64,000 nt of DNA, taken from assembly GCA_002897775.1 (NCBI GenBank), contig BDTR01000039.1, positions 1-64,000 of the forward strand, given 5' to 3'. Positions 5,182 to 63,777 of the stretch are shown here, piece after piece; the stretch's first letter is position 1, and each line of letters opens with the position of its first letter. The notes under the pieces were generated by a model that saw only the letters and a program-made list of their open reading frames with translations, did no database searches and was not told where the DNA came from. This DNA is from a bacterium BMS3Bbin08 (lineage in GTDB: Bacteria; Nitrospirota; Thermodesulfovibrionia; UBA6902; BMS3Bbin08). A program made the translations under genes and the position numbers.

Positions 5182-5550
5182 ATGATCCAGCATAGAAGCA
5201 TATTATATGTTGCGGACAATTCAGGCGCCAAGAGGGTGCAGTGTATCAAGGTCAAGGGAGGCTCTTACAGGAGATACGCGCGTATAGGTGATGTCATTAT
5301 TGTGAGCATCAAGGAGGCCCTGCCTGTGGGCAACGTAAAAAAAGGAACAGTCGCAAAAGGTGTTGTAGTCAGGACAAAGAAAGAGATCCGCAGACCTGAC
5401 GGGTCGTATATAAGGTTTGACCAGAACGCCGTTGTTCTCATAAACGCTGAAGGCGACCCCATAGGCACGAGGATATTCGGCCCTGTTGCAAGAGAGCTCA
5501 GATGGAAAGAATATATGAAGATAGTTTCTCTTGCGCCTGAGGTATTGTGA
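5182..5550 (+). CDS. rplN: 50S ribosomal protein L14
   Basis: The 122-residue protein starts [20 protein letters not shown] and ends with [19 protein letters not shown], both diagnostic of L14, at exactly the usual family length. L14 forms part of the intersubunit bridge and is the docking site of the silencing factor RsfS. A 111-bp spacer holding a long hairpin element (5571-5650) separates it from rplX, an unusually large break at this point of the operon. Confidence 0.98.
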
Positions 5551-5570: not shown

Positions 5571-5650
5571 ACCCCGCTAGATTCTGCACCCGCAGTTTTG
5601 TGTTAGCAAAACTGGACGCGGGTGTCATAAGAGAATCTGGACAGCGGGGC
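5571..5650. repeat. Long four-segment hairpin element, copy 1 (rplN-rplX spacer)
   Basis: Nested arms pair in order: CCCCGCT/AGCGGGG, AGATTC/GAATCT, CACCCGC/GCGGGTG and AGTTTTG/CAAAACT, closing on a loop of about six bases. A second copy lies at 45361-45439 before tRNA-Leu, with the basal stem changed to CCCCGTT/AACGGGG. The paired changes imply selection for, or copying of, the structure. Both copies are followed by GCAGG(T/C)AGA. It ends just upstream of rplX and so lies inside the operon transcript. Confidence 0.75.
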
Positions 5651-5661
5651 AGGTAGAGAAC

Positions 5662-5979
5662 ATGGGTTTGGACATAAAGAAAGAAGATATGGTGACAGTA
5701 ATTCTCGGAGATGACAAGGGCAAAAGGGGCAGTATCCTGTCGGTTTCTCCCAAGAAAGGGAGATGTGTGGTCGAAAGGCTCAACATGATAAAAAGGCATA
5801 TGAAGCCCAGCAAAAAATACACGCAGGGGGGGATCATTGAGAAGGAGGCCCCTATACACAGATCCAACCTGATGCTTGTATGTCCGAAATGTGACAAGCC
5901 CACGAAGATAGGGCATAAGTTCCTTGAAAGCGGTTCCAAGGTTAGGGTCTGCAGAAAGTGCGGAGAAGTACTGGATTAA
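5662..5979 (+). CDS. rplX: 50S ribosomal protein L24 with zinc-type C-terminus
   Basis: The 105-residue protein has the KOW-type N-terminus of L24 ([20 protein letters not shown]) and the middle [20 protein letters not shown]. Its last third holds two CxxC pairs (VCPKCDKP and VCRKCGEVL), a small zinc-ribbon-like ending present in some bacterial L24 proteins and absent in E. coli. L24 starts 50S assembly. It lies just after the long hairpin element; the stop is followed seven bases later by rplE. Confidence 0.96.
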
Positions 5980-7747: not shown

Positions 7748-7760
7748 CAGGGTTTTATTT

Positions 7761-7860
7761 ACCCCGTTAAAAGAAAGCCTTCGATGAAATCGGAGGTTAA
7801 AAAATCTGTCGCAGTCGGTGGTCTAAAGCCAACGACACGTAACACCTTTTTAACGGGGTT
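7761..7860. repeat. CCCCGTTAAAA hairpin element between rplF and rplR
   Basis: A 100-bp segment is closed by ACCCCGTTAAAA and TTTTTAACGGGGT, an uninterrupted inverted repeat, with smaller complementary pieces inside. It shares its CCCCGTTA/TAACGGGG ends with elements at 39840-39910 and 60337-60440. It lies within the ribosomal operon, 13 bases after the rplF stop, and the rplR RBS (GAGGGGGAAG) follows it. It could be an RNA structure or a mobile palindromic repeat. Confidence 0.65.
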
Positions 7861-7882
7861 CACTGAATAAGAGGGGGAAGTT

Positions 7883-8245: not shown

Positions 8246-8301
8246 AATTCAGAAATCGGTGTAATCGCCTTAAAAAAATCGGTGTAATCAGGTTTAATAA
8301 A
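8246..8301. repeat. ATCGGTGTAATC word repeat before rpsE
   Basis: Two direct copies of AAATCGGTGTAATC lie in the rplR-rpsE spacer. The same vocabulary (ATTACACAGAT, ATCGGTGTAATC, ATCTGTG) fills the spacers before secY, before rpmJ and before the lolC-like gene. Confidence 0.6.
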
Positions 8302-8322
8302 TATTAAACCAGGAGGTAATTA

Positions 8323-11027: not shown

Positions 11028-11035
11028 CGAAAAGA

Positions 11036-11108
11036 AGTAGAGAGAAGAGAGTAGAGGGTAGCGAGAAAAGATAAATCTCTCTACTTGCTGCTTGCTACTC
11101 GCTACTTT
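11036..11108. repeat. AGTAGAG/CTCTCTACT hairpin spacer, secY-map
   Basis: A left arm of drifting GTAGAGAG, GAGTAGAGGGTAGCGAG words is followed, after ATAAAT, by a right arm of complementary words (CTCTCTACTTGCTGCTTGCT, then ACTCGCTAC). The arms form an imperfect hairpin of about 30 bp. A relative with the same words lies at 23938-24034. The element runs into the apparent 5' end of the map ORF. Confidence 0.7.
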
Positions 11109-12114: not shown

Positions 12115-12205
12115 TTGATTTCACTGATTAAAGGACCAAGATTACACAGATACAAAAATAAATCTGTGGAATCGTTTTTTGTAAAATCGGTGTAATCAAT
12201 TATAA
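12115..12205. repeat. TGTAATC/ACAGATT word repeat before rpmJ
   Basis: Words such as GATTACACAGATAC, AAATCTGTGGAATC and AAATCGGTGTAATCAA fill the infA-rpmJ spacer. AGATTACACAGAT and ATCTGTGGAATC are roughly complementary, so the transcript could fold here. It shares vocabulary with the spacers before rpsE, secY and the lolC-like gene. Confidence 0.6.
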
Positions 12206-16261: not shown

Positions 16262-16368
16262 TATTTTTTAGTTATTAAGTTATTCATCATTCAAGTAATT
16301 GAGTAATTAAGTCATTGAGTTATTTAAATAACTTAGTTGCTTAATGACCTAATGACTAAATGACTTAT
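16262..16368. repeat. AT-rich word-repeat spacer between dnaE and accA
   Basis: Drifting AAGTCATTGAG, AATTAAGTCATT, AATAACTTAG and ATGACCTAATGAC words fill the spacer. It shares vocabulary with the tuf-rpsJ spacer (124-239) and contains complementary words (GAGTTATTTAAATAACTTAG is nearly palindromic). Confidence 0.65.
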
Positions 16369-23254: not shown

Positions 23255-23495
23255 GGTCGAAGTTCGCGTATGTAATACCAAAATAGAAATGTCCTAAAAA
23301 CGGTCATGCTATATAACCCTTTTAAAACATCCCTGTCTGTCATGCTGGCTTGTCCAGCATCCTTCTAAACAAGTCTGAAAGATTCCCGACAAGCGGGAAT
23401 GACACCTGCATTGAGTCAATGCAAAAACAGGACATTTCTAAATTGGTAAGAATAGGACATTTCTAAATTGGTTTGACAGGTCGAAGTTCGCGTAT
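23255..23495. mobile_element. Short non-coding insertion or IS/MITE remnant
   Basis: A 17-bp direct repeat (GGTCGAAGTTCGCGTAT) occurs at 23255-23271 and 23479-23495. Just inside lie inverted copies of AGAAATGTCCT and AGGACATTTCT, the right-hand one doubled as AGGACATTTCTAAATTGGT. The middle holds two dispersed palindromes (TGCTGGCTTGTCCAGCA and ATTCCCGACAAGCGGGAAT). No ORF is present. Terminal inverted repeats and flanking direct repeats suggest a deletion derivative or MITE, although 17 bp is long for a target duplication. Confidence 0.45.
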
Positions 23496-23926: not shown

Positions 23927-23937
23927 GTTCTAAAAAA

Positions 23938-24034
23938 AAGTAGAGAGTAGAGGGTAGCAAGTAGCAAGAAAAAAATCTACGATCTAAAATGTGAAATCAA
24001 AGATCTCTCTGTTTTCCACTCCCTACTTCTTAAA
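23938..24034. repeat. AGTAGAGAGTAGAGGGTAGC hairpin spacer
   Basis: Left arm AGTAGAGAGTAGAGGGTAGC plus AAGTAGCAAG; right arm about 50 bases later with CTCTCT and CCACTCCCTACTTCTT. It is the second site with the AGTAGAG vocabulary (first at 11036-11108). It ends just before the flavoprotein start. Confidence 0.6.
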
Positions 24035-39839: not shown

Positions 39840-39910
39840 ACCCCGTTAGAAAATGCCGCCCCTCTCCGGCTGGGATGTTATAAACCCCATTCCTTTCTAA
39901 CGGGGTTTAC
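39840..39910. repeat. CCCCGTTAGAAA hairpin element
   Basis: ACCCCGTTAGAAA and TTTCTAACGGGGT form a perfect closing stem of about 12 bp around some 45 bases, followed by TTACT. It belongs to the family at 7761-7860 and 60337-60440. It lies upstream of rlmN in the 421-bp divergent spacer. Confidence 0.7.
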
Positions 39911-40006: not shown

Positions 40007-40146
40007 TTCCTCGAAGCTTGCTTCGGGGTTTCAATAGTTTTCGTCATTTTTGTCATTCCGGCTTGTCCGGAATCTATCTTTGATACAGGAAGATTCCGGA
40101 CAAGCCGGAATGACAGACTTGATACCTCGCAGCTTGCTGCGGGGTA
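40007..40146. repeat. Nested dispersed palindromes in the leader of the GGDEF gene
   Basis: Outer units CCTCGAAGCTTGCTTCGGGG and CCTCGCAGCTTGCTGCGGGG are each hairpins. Between them TGTCATTCCGGCTTGTCCGG and, inverted, CCGGACAAGCCGGAATGACA form a 25-bp inverted repeat. The TCATTCCGGCTTGTCCGGAATC type resembles repeats common in many bacterial genomes; a diverged relative lies in the insertion remnant at 23336-23403. Confidence 0.7.
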
Positions 40147-45360: not shown

Positions 45361-45439
45361 CCCCGTTAGATTCTGCACCCACAGTTTCTAGGTAAGCAAA
45401 ACTGGACGCGGGTGTTAAAAACGAATCTGGACAACGGGG
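45361..45439. repeat. Long four-segment hairpin element, copy 2 (before tRNA-Leu)
   Basis: Same design as 5571-5650: CCCCGTT/AACGGGG, AGATTC/GAATCT, CACCCA region/GCGGGTG and CAGTTT/AAACTG. The basal stem differs from copy 1 by paired changes (CT/AG to TT/AA). It is followed by CAGGCAGA, as in copy 1 (CAGGTAGA). It lies between a GCCTGCC-type palindrome and tRNA-Leu. Confidence 0.72.
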
Positions 45440-45465
45440 CAGGCAGATTTACCCTGCACTAATTT

Positions 45466-45547
<82 letters not shown>

Positions 45548-45589
45548 TATAATAAATTTTAAAAATCAAAATTTAGTGCAGGGCGCGCT

Positions 45590-55225: not shown

Positions 55226-56077
55226 ATGAAACGTGCGGTTGTTCTTTTAAGCGGCGGAATTGATTCTACTACCTCACTGGCTATTGCAAAGGCTGAGGGT
55301 TTTGGAATATACGCGATCAGTTTTGATTACGGTCAAAGACATAGTATAGAGTTGAGTTCGGCCAAACAGTGCGCCGCGTATTTTGACGTTAAAAAACATA
55401 TTGTCATAAGTTTTGACCTCAGGGAGATCGGAGGGTCCGCACTTACCTCTGATATAGAGGTGCCCAAGGTATCTTTGGGTAAGACCACGCATGATGAGAA
55501 AGAAGTTGAGAAGATAAGAAGTTGGGAAGATAAGAATTCTCAGCCTCTTAACCTCTCAGCCTCTCAGCTTCCGGAGGCGCAGCCTGACATTCCGGTCACT
55601 TATGTTCCCGCTCGTAACACCATATTTTTATCGTTCGCGCTGGCATTTGCCGAAAGTATTGGTTCTGAAAATATCTTCATTGGAGCCAATGCTGTTGATT
55701 ACAGCGGCTATCCTGACTGCAGGCCTGAATTTATAAAAGCATTTGAGAGCATGGCTAACCTTGCTACAAAAGCGTCTGTTGAAGGAAGAGCCAGGTTTTT
55801 GATCCATGCGCCTTTAATAACACTCACCAAGGCTGAGATAATAAAGAAAGGGGCTGAGCTGGGTGTTGATCATTCCCTGACATGGAGCTGTTATGATCCA
55901 CAGCCAGCAACAGAAGATGAGAAGATGAGAAGATGTGAAGATAAGCAGTCTCAACCTCCTAATTTCTTGGCTTCTGAACTTCTGAAGTATGTTCCATGCA
56001 TGCGTTGTGACAGCTGTATATTACGGGCCAGGGGCTTTAAAGAGGCGGGGATAACCGATCCGTTAATCTTAAAGTAG
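55226..56077 (+). CDS. queC: 7-cyano-7-deazaguanine synthase QueC with two in-frame repeat insertions
   Basis: The 283-residue protein (family about 220-235) has the ATP-PPase loop ([20 protein letters not shown]), [41 protein letters not shown] and C-terminal zinc cysteines (TWSCYDPQ, then [15 protein letters not shown]). It makes preQ0 for queuosine. Two 63-bp copies of one repeat lie in the same frame at 55508-55570 and 55919-55981 (translated [18 protein letters not shown] and [18 protein letters not shown]), just before the VTYVPARN segment and between the zinc ligands. The extra length equals these inserts. All active-site motifs remain, so the enzyme is probably functional. Confidence 0.93.
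55508..55570. repeat. In-frame repeat insertion 1 in queC
   Basis: GAGAAGATAAGAAGTTGGGA begins this 63-bp unit; the purine-rich half is followed by a pyrimidine-rich half (CTCAGCCTCTTAACCTCTCA). By hand alignment it matches copy 2 at 49 of 63 bases and 13 of 21 residues. The same words occur between genes at 23712-23846 and 63731-63777. Confidence 0.8.
55919..55981. repeat. In-frame repeat insertion 2 in queC
   Basis: GAGAAGATGAGAAGATGTGA begins this second 63-bp unit, in the same reading frame as copy 1 (offsets 282 and 693 from the ATG, both multiples of three). It lies between the first zinc cysteine (TWSCYDPQ) and the CMRCDSC group. Confidence 0.8.
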
Positions 56078-60336: not shown

Positions 60337-60440
60337 ACCCCGTTAGATAATGACGGGCGCCTTTAAGGATAGGACCATGAGACAACCGTATCTAACGGGG
60401 TTTACCCCATTAGATCACACGAATATACTAACGGGGTTTA
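60337..60440. repeat. Tandem CCCCGTTAGATA hairpins between zapB-like and zapA
   Basis: First hairpin: ACCCCGTTAGATA/TATCTAACGGGGT around about 40 bases. A second, ACCCCATTAGATC...ACTAACGGGGT, follows directly and shares the junction ACCCC. Both end GGGGTTTAC. Same family as 7761-7860 and 39840-39910. Confidence 0.7.
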
Positions 60441-63733: not shown

Positions 63734-63777
63734 GAAGACAGAAGATAAGAAGTTAAGAGGATGAGAAGCTGTAAAAG
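63731..63777. repeat. AGAAGATAAGAAGTTAAGAG word repeat
   Basis: GAGAAGACAGAAGATAAGAA, GTTAAGAGGATGAGAAGCTG follows the lolC-like stop. It shares words with the queC insertions and the tRNA-Gly/tRNA-Cys spacer. Confidence 0.55.

Follow-up and report, generated by a model that had tools for sequence, protein, structure and literature searches.

Nested bulged hairpins, probably REP-like mobile elements, in the Nitrospirota bacterium BMS3Bbin08 and two relatives

REPs of the GTAG and CGTC classes are short palindromes located behind genes. Their stems covary, they have at times inserted into other palindromes, and those of the CGTC class have no transposase (PMC3733652). In the GTAG class, the GTAG foot is present in more than 90% of REPs, and the cognate PF01797 gene is usually flanked by repeats (PMC3733652, PMC8266576, PMC3116915). 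Bulged imperfect hairpins are described as the recognised REP substrate in E. coli (PMC8266576). Palindrome elements derived from IS200/IS605 are characterised by a Y1 HUH enzyme, a folded strand and duplication-free insertion. Integron attC sites are folded single strands with extrahelical bases, variable stems and a RYYYAAC/GTTRRRY core, arranged in a cassette array. Fungal and algal mitochondria contain double-hairpin elements, which are small mobile hairpins without coding capacity.

The window analysed here is a stretch of 64,000 nucleotides from BMS3Bbin08 (contig BDTR01000039.1), whose genome is called the host genome below. It contains two copies of a nested hairpin, described in the first-pass annotation as the same four-segment fold with a base change that keeps the basal arms paired. 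This fold stands: the arms are CCCCGCT/AGCGGGG in copy 1 (5572-5649) and CCCCGTT/AACGGGG in copy 2 (45361-45439), and folding z scores against shuffled sequences were low in both (copy 1, -5.7 for RNA and -8.4 for ssDNA; copy 2, -3.1 and -3.2). The weaker scores of copy 2 are due to its innermost stem, which has partly decayed (TTTCTAGGTAAGCAAAAC). What had been missed is that the hairpin consists of two copies of one smaller bulged module, one sitting in the other's tip loop, and that each carries GGAC on its 3' side. The layout of copy 1 is CCCCGCT-AGATTC-tg-CACCCGC-AGTTTTG-tgttag-CAAAACT-GGAC-GCGGGTG-tcataaga-GAATCT-GGAC-AGCGGGG. CAGG[T/C]AGA was found directly 3' of both copies, and the genomic contexts were as annotated, rplN ending at 5550 and rplX starting at 5662 (Pfam), with tRNA-Leu (CAA) at 45465-45548. 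The features are:

5572-5649, + strand: copy 1, the whole two-layer hairpin, between rplN and rplX (sequence, BLAST, covariation, folding).
5572-5584, + strand: 5' side of the copy 1 outer module, basal arm CCCCGCT and apical arm AGATTC.
5587-5624, + strand: copy 1 inner module in the outer loop, CACCCGC-AGTTTTG-tgttag-CAAAACT-GGAC-GCGGGTG (R2 match, 55.6 bits).
5614-5617, + strand: conserved GGAC bulge of the copy 1 inner module.
5633-5649, + strand: 3' side of the copy 1 outer module, apical GAATCT, bulge GGAC (5639-5642) and basal AGCGGGG.
5650-5657, + strand: 3' tail of copy 1, CAGGTAGA.
45361-45439, + strand: copy 2, the whole element, whose inner tip stem has partly decayed; tRNA-Leu lies 25 nt downstream.
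45376-45414, + strand: copy 2 inner module (R2 match, 38.5 bits).
45423-45439, + strand: 3' side of the copy 2 outer module, GAATCT, GGAC (45429-45432) and AACGGGG.
45440-45447, + strand: 3' tail of copy 2, CAGGCAGA.
5182-5550, + strand: rplN (L14), upstream of copy 1 (PF00238).
5662-5979, + strand: rplX (L24), downstream of copy 1 (PF17136).
45465-45548, + strand: tRNA-Leu (CAA), downstream of copy 2.

The module has two stems, basal (about 7 bp) and apical (6-8 bp), and a conserved 3'-side bulge of 4-5 nt, which reads GGAC or, in variants, AGAC or AAGAC. When 447 kb were scanned without bias for two-stem hairpins bulged by any four nucleotides on the 3' side, GGAC accounted for 14 of 61, against 4 for the runner-up (binomial P about 4e-21, some copies being duplicates). 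Single, double, triple and apparently quadruple nestings occur in the host genome: certain copies have the outer module alone (e.g. L020 and L029), two have three layers (L069 and L072) and one apparently four (L073), and others consist of one module whose stems differ (L082, L084 and L085). CAGG follows 16 of the 38 host elements, and across the family the 3' tail is CAGG or CTTCG. The unit is a bulged hairpin of about 34-38 nt with a short 3' tail, or about 41-43 nt in cases with two legible ends, these ends being deduced from few insertions. Composite units such as the two-layer window element are themselves multi-copy, and six copies in G018, a genome from another family of the same order, have in their tip loop one further nested module in common. 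Most matches from a permissive scan, in which any hairpin with an insertion of 38-61 nt counted, were due to chance. An autonomous form, which would carry a gene in its loop, was also sought; the long-loop matches either join adjacent copies or are unrelated.

The host genome is fragmented (2.71 Mb in 67 contigs). It contains 17 near-full copies by BLAST, about 22 long and more than 15 short copies with a model of the double form, 41 modules at E <= 0.1 with the general model and 32 at E <= 0.01 with a second model, the covariance models having been built from the very elements counted. The covariance-model scan suggested in the first-pass annotation thereby yielded further copies, with covarying stems, in the host and in two relatives: about 42 modules in G018 (general model) and six in G013, all in one cluster. 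With the covariance model, no module was found in the remaining 44 genomes of that order, among which three belong to the host's own family, so that carriers amount to 3 of 47. A search of 396 genomes of the phylum, with stricter filters that may miss weak copies, gave matches in the host and G018 alone, both already known, G013 being absent from its matches. Viral contigs, phages and plasmids gave no match, and the single match to the exact pattern in GTDB contigs, on a SAR86 contig, was discarded as a chance match that is not a hairpin.

Several observations bear on mobility. First, the orthologous rplN-rplX spacer is free of such a hairpin in 9 of the 10 relatives searched, the G009 spacer being unparsed. 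In G018 a module lies between rplR and rpsE, in the same ribosomal superoperon, and was not found in the host rplR-rpsE spacer within the window. Second, a serine-recombinase N-terminus in G013 continues across two modules in three frames (C37:30360-30650, L257), and the GIY-YIG gene that comes next has a further four modules at its borders. Joining the recombinase flanks raised the Resolvase score to 44.9 bits, from 17.1 with the first piece alone, one residue of the joined peptide (H) being inferred at the second junction. Third, in G018 the bulge of one module holds another in four cases, the points of insertion being GGGA^C, AGGA^C (twice) and AAGA^C. These inserts consist of a hairpin of 36-38 nt and a tail of five bases, 41-43 nt in all, and lack a target duplication; a fifth, in contig C46, is similar by eye. 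The 41 bases inserted in the G013 recombinase correspond to the unit length in these bulge insertions. No consensus target besides the bulge site was noticed by eye. In conclusion, units enter intergenic spacers, a gene and one another without visible target duplication, as read from comparisons between genera or wider, recent insertion or excision not being directly seen. Unit-into-unit insertion recurs at one point, RGA^C of the bulge, or in the apical loop, and produces nested hairpins.

The stems of these units covary. Double-sided changes were observed in 5 of 27 pairs among 13 long host copies, compared with 0-1 when the partners were slid, in 9 of 13 pairs among 11 diverse single modules, and in 11 of 13 pairs among 73 distinct modules from the three genomes. 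The 73-module alignment was fitted to the model and its pairing figures lean towards it; 95.6% of its 949 cells were paired and 149 were double-changed, compared with at most 7 in slid controls, so that covariation, the absence of which, together with neutral decay, would for the first-pass annotation have made a conserved structural role unlikely, is present genome-wide. Fixed across the modules are the RGAC bulge and the A-T and G-C pairs that close the apical stem. The module keeps its structure through compensating changes in the stems. One-sided changes gave 12 G-U and 42 non-pairs, and double changes were almost all Watson-Crick, which suggests pairing of DNA rather than a selected RNA; pairing would be maintained at the DNA level or through arm-to-arm copying. 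The functional RNA or ssDNA structure first proposed as one option is supported to the extent that its pairing is maintained. Because tips are flipped in 3 of 12 cases (GTGTTAGC to GCT[A/C]ACAC) and one copy (G018 C46:20740) is now a bulge-less perfect palindrome, template switching within the palindrome probably corrects the arms.

Taken together, the hairpin is probably a REP-like, non-autonomous small mobile element of the ssDNA type. The other option of the first-pass annotation, a mobile palindrome, is indeed well supported by the empty orthologous site, the broken gene, nesting, the patchy distribution and the many unrelated flanks. The moving form would be folded single-stranded DNA, an enzyme acting in trans may recognise and nick the RGAC bulge, and composites would have spread after one unit entered the loop of another. 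The window copies would occupy tolerated short spacers, and a host function is not needed to explain them. More tentatively, the family could be a self-nesting, site-specific ssDNA hairpin transposon, with the bulge as mark and insertion site, an enzyme other than Y1/RAYT and a bias for the transcribed strand. As the bulge would be both the mark of the element and its insertion site, successive insertions would stack layered hairpins that record their history.

Most copies adjoin the 3' end of a same-strand gene. In G018, the gene on the 5' side was on the strand of the element for 32 of 41 elements (P about 2e-4 with simple ORF calls, a crude caller that misassigned some cases, the window rplN copy among them). 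These same-strand elements are usually within 60 nt of the gene's end, and tandem gene pairs predominate (21:3). Placement in the host is similar with respect to the 5'-side gene and strand. On host contig C53, PAS histidine kinases end in APLDSAPAVLC, a C-terminal tail encoded by an element; a cluster of such genes with element-encoded C-terminal tails is located at 137-154 kb (L002-L004, L010 and L015). CTTGGGAGG, which resembles a Shine-Dalgarno sequence, and a start codon directly follow several G018 copies. It was also observed that in seven G018 loci (L118, L123, L174, L176, L179, L244 and L248) a second small variable hairpin follows the tail and ends with CTTGGGAGG at the start codon.

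A strand bias relative to the gene upstream would not be expected of a simple ssDNA element, and RNA could be involved. The position of most copies behind a same-strand gene, the excess of tandem pairs, the transcribed contexts of both window copies and the proximity of several G018 copies to translation starts agree with a cis-acting RNA. In this view the mRNA hairpin downstream of stop codons is under selection as an attenuator, a stabiliser or a processing site, and its usefulness led to amplification. This explanation is nevertheless doubtful: the G-U excess among one-sided changes is absent, the adjoining genes are unrelated, relatives do without the element in the rplN-rplX spacer, copies occur within a broken gene and within each other, and nothing in Rfam matched the hairpin above the gathering score.

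A classical REP family moved by a genome-encoded RAYT/TnpA_REP (Y1 HUH) transposase would account for the size, the intergenic sites behind genes, the compensatory stems and the duplication-free insertion, and the host has 17 Y1_Tnp genes (L037-L053), an unusually high number (8 or fewer in relatives). GTAG was found within 12 nt 5' of 16 of the 38 host elements, against about 1% expected; however, it was at 0-2 nt in only 7 of the 38, and the tag was not seen beside the G018 copies. None of the 17 host Y1 genes has an element within about 1.5 kb, and G018 (92% completeness), with its 42 or so modules, gave no PF01797 match. Several host Y1 genes are bounded by GGGGTCAG-type inverted repeats and resemble the TIRYT class in these terminal repeats (PMC3733652). 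A link to RAYT was rejected, host Y1 genes being distant from the elements and G018 having none, and a classical REP family is improbable. As a separate observation, several host Y1 loci have GGGGTCAGG terminal inverted repeats.

Two other mobiliser candidates were rejected. A GIY-YIG nuclease gene is surrounded by the sole G013 cluster, yet GIY-YIG genes are present in 20 of 20 genomes tested, and no module was found at the remaining GIY-YIG loci scanned. Reverse transcriptase (RVT_1) is absent from the host and G013, with one gene in G018. At 192.3-193.0 kb of host contig C30 (L107), two identical tRNA-gene-like sequences flank a GIY-YIG ORF.

Spread and maintenance of palindromes by replication errors alone (template switching, slippage), with no enzyme, is very improbable, for it agrees with the flipped tip loops, the bulge-less palindrome and an arm correction giving Watson-Crick double changes, but leaves unexplained the dispersal to dozens of unrelated sites, the bulge retained across three genomes and the repeated insertion exactly at RGA^C.

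The REP-like mobile element can be compared with the known systems. It shares with GTAG REPs and REPINs the short dispersed intergenic palindrome, often behind genes, with compensating stems, the imperfect bulged hairpin and insertion into palindromes, known in some genomes; it differs by its two stacked stems, its conserved RGAC bulge, nesting in bulge and tip, and the lack of a linked Y1 gene (PMC3733652, PMC8266576, PMC3116915). As in CGTC (TGTC) REPs, the opposite strand of the bulge reads YGTC(C) next to the apical stem, copies are dispersed and patchy, and REPs lie inside palindromes in one species, H. neapolitanus (PMC3733652). CGTC REPs have no known dedicated transposase; for the present family the search covered Y1, GIY-YIG and reverse transcriptase genes, and gave no linked Y1 gene, no general GIY-YIG link and no reverse transcriptase in the host or G013. 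In contrast, the CGTC tag is unpaired at the end, whereas YGTC(C) here is enclosed by a second stem; the CGTC stem starts with AT and its tail is CCA, compared with AG and CAGG or CTTCG; and CGTC REPs form head-to-head dimers, compared with mostly single nested units. The family was set apart as a variant of REPs because both tag tests (GTAG, CGTC) failed. With respect to IS200/IS605-derived elements, the four bulge insertions showed no duplication.

Little was found in the literature on nested bacterial palindromes. Like attC sites, the elements have a folded strand with extrahelical bases and variable stems; however, the RYYYAAC/GTTRRRY core is not at the hairpin ends, CCCCGTT/AACGGGG has the reversed core sense, and copies are dispersed rather than in a cassette array. 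Mitochondrial double-hairpin elements are likewise small, mobile and non-coding but organellar, a distinction made by description alone, and we know of none with a GGAC-bulge architecture.

Other repeats were noticed. A second palindrome family (window positions 39841-39905, 60338-60400 and 7760-7861) has the ends TTTACCCCGTTA(GA)...(TC)TAACGGGGTTTAC and lacks the GGAC bulge; the family's ends have CCCCGTTAGA in common with the outer arm of the GGAC element, and rplF and rplR flank one of its copies. Palindromes TGTCATTCC[CG]GCTTGTC[CG]GGAAT at 23335-23404 and 40044-40122 resemble TGTC-tagged REPs. Degenerate repeats with a period of about 8 nt (AGTAGAGAG, GAAGATGA, AAGTCATTG), often in inverted pairs, are present at 11030-11108, 23933-23972, 55499-55948, 63738-63776, 123-229 and 16277-16367, and one occurs in the orthologous rplN-rplX spacer of the relative G001. 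In the rplR-rpsE spacer (8246-8322), AATCGGTGTAATC is in tandem; the motif is also found near 12175, 45035 and 60444.

CGTC REPs are the known case of small bacterial palindromes that spread without a linked transposase (PMC3733652). The hairpin family offers handles on such spread: unit ends that can be read, a conserved bulge into which insertion recurs, and nesting from which the order of events is legible. Such elements can enter the ribosomal superoperon, and have done so independently in two genomes.
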